This document shows positions 23,206 through 40,009 of a DNA stretch of 64,000 bases, piece by piece. The notes under the pieces were generated by a model, which worked only from the letters and a program-made list of their open reading frames with translations, ran no database searches and had not been told where the DNA came from. Made by a program: the position numbers and the translations under genes. Every line of letters starts with the position of its first letter. The first letter of the stretch is position 1. Source of the stretch: Methanocaldococcus lauensis (lineage in GTDB: Archaea; AGJL01; Methanococci; Methanococcales; Methanocaldococcaceae); contig LR792634.1 in assembly GCA_902827205.1 (NCBI GenBank), positions 62,001 to 126,000 of the forward strand, written 5' to 3'.

Positions 23206-23285
23206 CTAAGAAACTCTGCTTTAGGATGGTTATGAATTCAGCGGCGACGATGAGGAGTAGGGTTTGGAGTAGTTTCTTAGTTTTT
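23206..23285 (+). terminator. Long hairpin with T-run downstream of glnB; possible small RNA
   Basis: CTAAGAAACT (23206-23215) and AGTTTCTTAG (23271-23280) are a perfect 10-bp inverted repeat followed by TTTTT. The 55-base loop is unusually GC-rich for this genome (it contains GCGGCGACGATGAGGAG). As a terminator the loop is large; a small structured RNA ending at the T-run is an alternative. The right arm is also the first part of a sequence repeated upstream of the second noncoding RNA copy. Confidence 0.45.
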
Positions 23286-23293
23286 GTAGCATA
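23260..23293 (+). repeat. Upstream element of the noncoding RNA, copy 1
   Basis: A 34-base stretch starting GGGTTTGGAG and ending TTTTTGTAGCATA. It matches 31 of 34 bases at 39795-39828 (minus strand) and, less closely over the last 26 bases, 38884-38909 (minus strand). In the first two RNA loci it lies just upstream of the TATA box. Confidence 0.7.
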
Positions 23294-23299
23294 TCGTAA

Positions 23300-23307
23300 T
23301 ATATAAA
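23300..23307 (+). promoter_or_regulatory. TATA box of noncoding RNA copy 1
   Basis: TATATAAA, 33 bases before the conserved start ACCGATGAGAGGG. The same octamer sits 28 bases before the same start at copy 2, while the sequence between box and start is not conserved, which supports promoter function. Confidence 0.65.
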
Positions 23308-23339
23308 TATAAATATCAGTGGAATAATATTGTTATATA

Positions 23340-23555
23340 ACCGATGAGAGGGCTCTGTCTTCGAGGTTATTATAAATGCTTATAAATTTTATTTGAGGGG
23401 CTGTCTCCGTTCAGCCCGAAGTCCAATGAATCTATGGCAGAGAGATTGGTATTCTCGATGAATCTATGAGTTGAGGACAACCCATTTCCATAGCTATCGG
23501 TTTGTATGGTATATTGTTAAATACTACGAAATATGCTATGGAAATGGGAAACGGT
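23340..23555 (+). ncRNA. Structured noncoding RNA, copy 1 of 2
   Basis: About 216 nt, GC-enriched, with no reading frame. The first 73 bases match copy 2 (38641-38843, minus strand) at 70 positions; the remainder aligns with more change but keeps its structural elements. Possible helices: terminal ACCG/CGGT closing pair; TTATAA-ATGC-TTATAA hairpin; GGGCTG/CAGCCC; GTCC/GGAC; and a perfect 14-bp stem CCCATTTCCATAGC/GCTATGGAAATGGG near the 3' end. A TATA box precedes it. GC-rich RNA families of unknown role are known from M. jannaschii computational screens; I cannot tell whether this belongs to one. Confidence 0.7.
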
Positions 23556-38263: not shown

Positions 38264-38590
38264 TGGTGTGCATGGCTTCCCTGGGGTGGGTATGTCCTCC
38301 AGCCCCCTCCTACCCACAGGTCTCTTCTCAACCCCGTTTACCCCGTGAGCGCCGACGTCCTGCCTACCGTTGCTCCCTTCCGGGCCTGGCGGGGTTCGGC
38401 AGGTAAAGGGGGTTACACCTTCCCTACAGAAGGTGCTCCCCCACCGCCGAGCCCCACGGGACGAGGCATCATCGAGAGACCTGTGGAGAGAAGACTGGAG
38501 GACATACCGCCCCCAGGTTTTCGGCCCCCGCATAAGGACGATTTCGGGTTACAGGGGACGCCCAACCCCCCGGCCTAGCCATGCACACCA
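38264..38590 (-). ncRNA. ffs: 7S signal recognition particle RNA
   Basis: A sharply GC-rich island. Read on the minus strand, the 5' end GGTGTGCATGGCT pairs with the 3' end AGCCATGCACACC. Near the 5' end the Alu-domain GUAACCC motif appears; in the middle GGCCCGGAAGGGAGCA is the helix 8 sequence bound by SRP54. Length of about 327 nt fits archaeal SRP RNA. Open frames here on either strand are not genes. Confidence 0.96.
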
Positions 38591-38622: not shown

Positions 38623-38640
38623 GTTTATGATGGTTAATGG

Positions 38641-38843
38641 TTACCGTTTCCCATTTCCATGGCGTATTATAACATATAATAACTTACGGCTATGGAAATG
38701 GATCGTCCTCAACCTATAGTTTCATTGGGAATACCATTCACTCTGCTATGGGTTCATTGGACTTTGGGTAGAACGGAAACAGCCCCTCAAATGAAATTTA
38801 TAAGCATTTATAATAACCTCGAAGGCAGAGCCCTCTCATCGGT
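38641..38843 (-). ncRNA. Structured noncoding RNA, copy 2 of 2
   Basis: About 203 nt from ACCGATGAGAGGG to ...GGAAACGGT on the minus strand, inverted relative to copy 1 at 23340-23555. The 3' stem is kept as CCATTTCCAT/ATGGAAATGG although the loop between differs completely, and the TTATAA hairpin, GTCC/GGAC pair and closing helix are also kept; the GGGCTG/CAGCCC helix of copy 1 is weaker here. TATATAAA lies 28 bases upstream. The SRP RNA promoter begins directly behind its 3' end. Confidence 0.7.
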
Positions 38844-38870
38844 TAATTAGTAATATAATTAAATTGAATA

Positions 38871-38878
38871 TTTATATA
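38871..38878 (-). promoter_or_regulatory. TATA box of noncoding RNA copy 2
   Basis: TATATAAA on the minus strand, 28 bases before the conserved RNA start. The upstream conserved block (38884-38909) adjoins it. Confidence 0.65.
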
Positions 38879-38883
38879 CTGTG

Positions 38884-38909
38884 ATATGTTACAGAAATTA
38901 AGAAATTGC
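38884..38909 (-). repeat. Upstream element of the noncoding RNA, copy 2
   Basis: Reads GCAATTTCTTAATTTCTGT then AACATAT on the minus strand and aligns with 23269-23294 at most positions. It precedes the TATA box as at copy 1. The rest of 38910-39042 is AT-rich with no gene seen. Confidence 0.55.
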
Positions 38910-39042
38910 CGTCTAACACTGTTTAAAAATATATAGGCATAGATAGACAAAGATACTCATTTATCGACAGTTAAAAAAGAAAACTTTTTATACTTTGTAA
39001 AATAATTCTTATACAAAAAGAGATAAAAATTTCGGTGATAAA

Positions 39043-39768
39043 ATGAGGAATAAAATCCCTAACCAAATCGTTCTGGCATATAAGGTTTCTCACAATTATA
39101 ATATAAATAATTTTCTAATCGATTTTTTAAATCTCTCTCAAAAGGCAGTTGATATTATCTGGAACAATATCCAATGGAAAGAGAGAATAGTTAAACATCG
39201 GTATAAAGTTGGAAATAATTATAAATACTACTCTACCGTTCGGTTAATCCCAGAAATTTCTAAAGATAGAGAGTTTAAAAGATTTTTGAGAAATACTTTA
39301 TTAAACGGTTGGAATTATGCCTCTCACTATGTCGATGCGGCTATTAAAGTGGCATATTCAACAATAGATAGTTGGAAATCGAATTATTTAAAGGGATTAA
39401 GAAAAAGAGCTAAGGTGATATTTAAAAGACCCTTCGTTAGAGTTAAAACTACTTTAATAAAATACAATAAAGAAAAAGGAGAAATAAAAATAACGATAAA
39501 ACCGAGAAAGGAATATTTAATTTTAAACATTAAAGATGAATGGTTTTTCGATAAGGTTAAAGATTGGGAGATTGGAGAAATCATTTTGAAGGAGAACTCT
39601 GCTTATCTAACATTTAAACAATCTTTAAACCATTCGAATAGAGAAATAATTGTCGGAGTTGATAGCAATCTAAAATCTCTTATTTTAAATGTCTATAATT
39701 GTCTATATTTGACTACATCGGGAAGACCCCTCGAACCTCTACACATCTTTATAAGAATCACAATATAA
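39043..39768 (+). pseudogene. tnpB: TnpB (IS200/IS605 family OrfB) with the catalytic half deleted
   Basis: 241 residues. The N-terminal part is TnpB-like (helical DNA/RNA-binding region, then the beta-rich KRPFVRVKTTLIKYNKEKGEI and KDEWFFDKVKDWEIGEI). It reaches the first RuvC catalytic aspartate in IIVGVDSNLKSL (about 207), but then runs into unrelated sequence and stops. RuvC motifs II and III and the zinc ribbon are missing, against a usual length of 370-430. The tail DNA (CGGGAAGACCCCTCGAACC) looks like the GC-rich right end of such elements, so an internal deletion is likely. No TnpA is present. ATG follows GGTGATAAA. Confidence 0.8.
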
Positions 39769-39794
39769 TATAATGTTACTATAAGTATCAATAT

Positions 39795-39828
39795 TATGCT
39801 ACAAAAACTAAGTAACTGCTACAAACCC
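39795..39828 (-). repeat. Orphan upstream element of the noncoding RNA, copy 3
   Basis: 31 of 34 bases match 23260-23293, starting GGGTTTGTAGC on the minus strand. No TATA box or RNA body follows; instead the deleted TnpB gene lies in that direction. It suggests that a third RNA locus stood here before deletion or insertion. Confidence 0.65.
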
Positions 39829-39829
39829 T

Positions 39830-40009
39830 CTAAGATTTATATAAAATACAATATACTTTATTTTTGTCTAACCTATTGTTTATTACCTCGTTAATTAGGG
39901 TATTCTTATCATTATTTATAGGTCCAAATATAAAGTAAATAAAATTAGGTTCTTCCACTATAATTGATAAAATTTCCTTTATCTTATTCTCTCTGTTGAA
40001 GAGTTCATA
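39830..40009 (-). pseudogene. N-terminal remnant of an archaeal ATPase (Arch_ATPase family)
   Basis: On the minus strand the frame reads YELFNRENKIKEILSII, then VEEPNFIYFIFGPINNDKN and TLINEVINNRL before stopping. This is the start of the archaeal STAND-like ATPases, which begin FxRExEIKxL and carry a P-loop GPxxSGKTTL; here the P-loop is degenerate (GPINNDKNTL). No start codon remains and the gene is cut off where the orphan repeat begins. The remaining bases to 40069 are the promoter region of the next gene. Confidence 0.5.

Follow-up and report, generated by a model that had tools for sequence, protein, structure and literature searches.

What does it mean that the upstream block of an RNA stands alone beside a truncated TnpB gene? 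In the window, by which we mean the whole 64,000-nt stretch of Methanocaldococcus lauensis DNA analysed, a 34-nt block precedes both copies of this RNA and occurs a third time as an apparent orphan. The third block reported in the earlier note was confirmed: the minus strand of 39795-39828 is identical to 23260-23293 at 31 of 34 positions, it has the orientation of RNA copy 2, and no further place in the whole window reaches 23 of 34 on either strand. The gene next to it is a TnpB ORF (39043-39768, plus strand) that stops just after RuvC-I, the remainder being missing. The feature as a whole is very probably best explained as two nested IS607-type TnpB transposons, here called type A and type B, both decayed. 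Sequence comparisons showed the observations behind this reading: one element is split by the other, the ends are common, insertion was at GG and duplicated nothing, the RNA is structured, and RNA and TnpB occur together. The features are as follows.

38644-39828, minus strand: A2, an IS607-derived type A miniature split by type B, running from its left end (39828) to its right end (38644)
39729-39828, minus strand: outer left-end part of A2, the orphan, with the 34-nt core at 39795-39828 (31/34 to copy 1; homology with the type A copy L076)
38909-39728, plus strand: type B IS607 element in A2 at GG, its 820 bp counting one GG/CC core
39043-39768, plus strand: relic type B tnpB ORF of 241 aa, residues 1-213 being TnpB up to RuvC-I, the tail chimeric
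38853-38908, minus strand: inner left-end part of A2 between type B and the RNA (from the L076 alignment; left-end form as in L003 and L005)
38644-38852, minus strand: RNA copy 2, right end and predicted omegaRNA scaffold of A2 (L004:1502-1710 in the alignment)
38624-38643, minus strand: position predicted for the guide of RNA copy 2, the first ~20 nt past the right end, after the IS607 TnpB reRNA architecture (PMC10711439)
23260-23554, plus strand: copy 1, a complete type A miniature, left end at 23260, right end at 23554
23331-23554, plus strand: RNA copy 1, right end and predicted omegaRNA scaffold (L001:1592-1815 in the alignment)
39830-40005, minus strand: archaeal ATPase_2 gene remnant (PF01637, E=1.3e-11), truncated at the A2 left end, boundaries approximate

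The ATPase_2 gene is multi-copy in the genus. On the other side of A2, the 5' end (38585) of the SRP RNA gene (38269-38585, minus strand) is only 58 bp away from the A2 right end at 38644.

Nested insertion at RNA copy 2

When 38909-39728 is removed, A2 aligns end to end with L076, an uninterrupted type A miniature of the relative G010, at 334 of 404 positions (83%), and the alignment is continuous across the joint. Because of this end-to-end alignment, the orphan block is the outer left end of the element of RNA copy 2. The shared end extends beyond 34 nt to ~95 nt, up to the insertion point. At the joint, the minus strand of the insert-free A2 reads ..TTATAAAGATGTGTAGAGGTTCGA-GG-CAATTTCTTAATTTCTGTAAC.. 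and L076 reads ..TTATAAAGATGTTTAGAAGTTTGAGACAATTTCTTAATTTCTGTAAC.., that is GGTTCGA-GG versus GA; L076 lies at a different locus and is an uninterrupted homologue, not an allelic empty site. GG is found at both outer ends of A2. Type B likewise has GG ends and sits in GG without target duplication, as judged from the A2 joint against the non-allelic homologue L076, and its boundaries match two full-length relatives in the conspecific genome G005 (737343-738820 and 1265346-1266824).

Compared with these full-length copies, type B in the window has an internal deletion of ~650 bp between 39680 and 39681, so that the protein ends after RuvC-I (..IVGVDSNLKSL). The tail of the 241-aa ORF is not TnpB, its last codons running through the right end of type B into the flanking left end. 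The relic ORF matches the TnpB at C1:735473 at 71%. Type B inserted at GG within the element of copy 2, pushing the outer left end ~820 bp away, and it has itself decayed by loss of its RuvC half. The A2 locus without type B is predicted to read GGTTCGAGGCAATTTC uninterrupted. Since G005 has the same nested arrangement (94% identity), the nesting event is older than the split of G005 from the genome that holds the window (G000). The reverse nesting also exists: L003 is a type A miniature inside a type B tnpB, and L003 and L005 share the left-end form of the inner left-end part of A2.

The earlier note had suggested, as one of two alternatives, that a TnpB element entered and destroyed a third RNA locus. 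A TnpB element did enter at the orphan site, namely type B inside A2, and a left end that adjoins a TnpB relic and is not directly followed by an RNA is what a lost locus would leave. However, the flanks of type B join into one uninterrupted element, as in G010, and the second left end belongs to the same double-left-end form, so that the existence of a third locus is very improbable. An origin of the orphan by inversion was rejected as well: the flanks are rearranged between species, but nested insertion explains the orphan without inversion. One element nested in another is an ordinary situation, and the apparent orphan resolves into a documented case of nested transposition.

Ends of the type A element

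Across G000, a genome of 1.48 Mb in one contig, the region of copy 1 matches ~18 places, so both RNA copies described for the window stand but are part of a larger set. At two of these places, L038 (C1:493.5k) and L039 (C1:1031k), a tnpB gene of 315 aa has the RNA as its 3' end, and the 34-nt block lies at the opposite end of the element. Nearly all RNA copies contain GATGAGAGGGCTCTGCCTTCGAGG, which codes for DERALPSR beside the tnpB zinc finger. Two elements of ~1.47 kb in G006 (L072, L073) have these same two ends on either side of a gene for a 421-aa TnpB, and L074 in G009 has a serine-recombinase fragment and a 425-aa TnpB between type A ends. In L038, L072, L073 and L074 the RNA is located at the right end, downstream of or overlapping tnpB. 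Because full elements of relatives carry the block and the RNA as ends around tnpB, the 34-nt block is the left end of a TnpB transposon, type A, which we class as IS607-type. Its right end is the RNA, composed of a short conserved 3' coding piece of tnpB and a covarying structure capable of forming a pseudoknot; this structure is best read as a predicted TnpB guide-RNA scaffold (omegaRNA/reRNA). The supposition that TnpB elements carry this RNA family along when they move is borne out by the full type A elements, and intact tnpB genes in related genomes do carry the RNA at their 3' end, a point the earlier note had proposed to check.

In several copies a TATA-like TATATAAATA follows the 34-nt block, ~30 nt before the RNA, as would fit a general promoter motif, the case that the earlier note had named as refuting its idea. 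In G000, however, genomic matches to the left end with E < 0.01 all lie at type A RNA copies; the search of this genome thus revealed no such motif, and we regard this explanation as extremely improbable. A CRISPR leader, an idea derived from the long repeats of M. jannaschii, was discarded too: no CRISPR repeats follow the copies in the window, and only L017 is near an array.

Type A tnpB copies without stops are present in G006. In G000 no intact type A TnpB was found, all copies found being defective. They lack 127 residues including RuvC-I, which makes nuclease action in G000 unlikely at present. L038 and L039 are letter-identical over 1126 bp in this genome without an intact TnpA, which we read as recent copying or gene conversion.

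Transposon family assignment

The label IS605-type in the earlier note did not hold. An IS200/IS605 (Y1) origin was rejected, as PF01797 has no match in G000 and the partner recombinases are of the serine type. Type A elements end in GG and also target GG. G004, G001 and G009 have the site of the L038 insertion in empty form, contiguous over a single GG without duplication, and the left boundaries of the tabulated type A copies carry GG with flanks that are mostly ..A-GG. Insertion at GG without target duplication is the reported behavior of IS607 (PMC6188088), and type A fits this family on that account. Short repeated end motifs are a further likeness.

A complete type A recombinase gene was not found; the traces are a fragment in L074 and a relic at C1:634382. 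L074, the only full type A element found with a recombinase, contains a catalytic-domain fragment (PF00239, E=8.9e-21) without the N-terminal part and also lacks part of the scaffold. The resolvase relic at C1:634382, directly upstream of a type A tnpB end/right end, is the sole recombinase trace in G000, and no intact IS607 TnpA was found in this genome, so that movement of the elements may belong to the past. In the type B relatives L142, L143 and L147 a complete IS607 TnpA with a MerR-type HTH and a resolvase domain (NF033518 E=7.9e-71, PF00239, PF00376) adjoins or overlaps tnpB. Type B is an IS607-type family distinct from type A. Unlike typical IS607 elements, the window copies have neither tnpA nor an intact tnpB, type B lacking the MerR-HTH and serine recombinase TnpA of its relatives and type A keeping just a recombinase fragment in one relative.

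RNA structure

An alignment of 37 sequences was used, in which seven helices were proposed by eye, and helix partners slid by 1-3 columns served as controls. Paired states were found in 91.2% of cells compared with 31-46% in the slid controls, and 18 pairs changed on both sides compared with 6-9. The 28 miniatures alone, in which the tnpB frame is generally broken, gave 91.5% against 31-46%, with 12 pairs changed on both sides against 4-8. As the copies recombine, compensatory states common to several of them are not all independent events. The RNA is a conserved structured scaffold with covariation over seven helices. G-U cells outnumber A-C cells in the helices (150 vs 87), which modestly favors the strand as read here. 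By alignment column counts, 93% of cells allow pairing between the apical loop CCGUU and the 3'-terminal AACGG; these pairs are nearly invariant and of little weight as evidence, and a simple pattern used to locate the loop sometimes matched GGCTGTTT instead. Unconstrained RNAalifold of the 37-sequence alignment recovered only part of the proposed structure.

Assignment to a known RNA family was tried and rejected, as no Rfam family matches the RNA. Like the reRNAs/omegaRNAs of ISXfa1, ISFba1 and ISDra2, the type A RNA is a structured right-end RNA that extends as far as the transposon boundary, and it may form a pseudoknot with its own 3' terminus; it differs from them in having no Rfam match and in being known here from sequence alone. 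IS607 reRNAs contain a pseudoknot, and a fixed flanking nucleotide belongs to their scaffold (PMC10711439). Bacterial IS607 TnpBs have AG-rich TAMs, and their RAGATH-18 reRNAs do not extend into the coding sequence (PMC11061315). In contrast, the type A RNA overlaps the 3' coding region of tnpB, whereas the left flanks of type A, mostly ..A-GG, fit such a motif.

The structure may also be an inherited shadow of the parent's scaffold, the miniatures being nothing but dead transposon debris. Neither an intact TnpA nor an intact type A TnpB was found in G000 and several copies are truncated, as expected for debris, but pairing and both-side changes persist in the frame-broken miniatures, and a short tnpB coding piece is kept although transposition should need just the ends. 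We consider debris a plausible reading that nevertheless falls somewhat short of probable.

Distribution in the genus and chromosome rearrangements

RNA copies were found in 7 of 14 genomes of the genus (G000, G001, G004, G005, G006, G009 and G010), with just one marginal short match in G013. Type A TnpB occurs in exactly the same seven genomes. The chance of an identical 7-of-14 split is 1 in 3432 for independent genomes, which these are not. Type B, by contrast, also has matches in G002, G007, G011 and G013, where the RNA does not accompany it; the adjoining type B TnpB was therefore ruled out as the partner of the RNA. The link between RNA and TnpB that the earlier note had thought conceivable is thus supported, but with type A TnpB, to which the RNA appears to belong, and not with the neighboring gene.

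Several type A copies are associated with exchanged flanks. The left flank of L003 and the right flank of L040 are adjacent in G009 (C21:5052-5349), G001 and G004; in G000 they are ~550 kb apart, each beside a type A element. The flanks of copy 1 (23260-23554) are paired differently in G005, with those of L008 (L008, L131, L132): the KH-gene flank comes after the L008 left flank and the L008 right flank is continuous with the GlnK flank, this being a comparison of two strains of one species (G000, G005). Type A copies mark points of flank exchange and chromosome rearrangement among strains and species of the genus. L129 in G005 is a mosaic in which the linker and right end of a miniature follow a tnpB body, which suggests recombination between copies. 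Three near-identical type A miniatures in G004 (L078, L125, L126) have a different linker and are possibly a separately derived lineage that kept the same RNA pieces. In L017 (1-1100; C1:~891.9-893.0k) a CRISPR array of at least 14 repeats is immediately followed by a type A fragment.

With many copies per genome, several of them intergenic near genes, the RNA might have been taken over by the host for a regulatory role unrelated to TnpB. This is very improbable, however, as the RNA is absent wherever type A TnpB is absent, three relatives have no insertion at the L038 site, and copies are located where chromosomes were rearranged.

Miniatures and their possible function

The type A miniatures, to which both window copies belong as internally deleted forms, are 220-295 bp long and consist of left end and scaffold, with tnpB deleted except for a short conserved piece in most copies. 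Their copy number (~18), parental ends and broken frames agree with non-autonomous elements of the MITE/PATE type. They were presumably moved in trans by an IS607 TnpA, a serine transposase. The PATEs of Haloquadratum resemble them: these are tnpB-element derivatives formed by core deletion, outnumber their parents and are often invaded by other elements (PMC3119063). In contrast to the IS607-type miniatures of type A, PATEs are IS605-type (Y1) and can shrink to 52 bp, whereas type A miniatures retain ~210 bp of guide-RNA scaffold. Miniatures bearing a guide-RNA scaffold, at ~18 copies per genome in this methanogen, are a little-described variant; the literature that we covered contained no omegaRNA-bearing IS607 miniatures, though IS605 elements may have been described in this respect elsewhere.

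The miniatures may be transcribed from the left end as stand-alone omegaRNAs, the guide then being the flank past AAACGG, just beyond the right end. A further step, which we think unlikely, is that they act as dispersed stand-alone omegaRNA genes with flank-derived guides, used in trans by a TnpB or by its RuvC-I-deleted 315-aa form as a DNA-binding protein. If so, a single nuclease or repressor would serve many tnpB-less elements. Should the miniatures be expressed, they would provide a test of whether TnpB can serve non-autonomous copies in trans. An omegaRNA-like family absent from Rfam survives in the tnpB-less miniatures of this hyperthermophilic archaeon and has retained its structure there.
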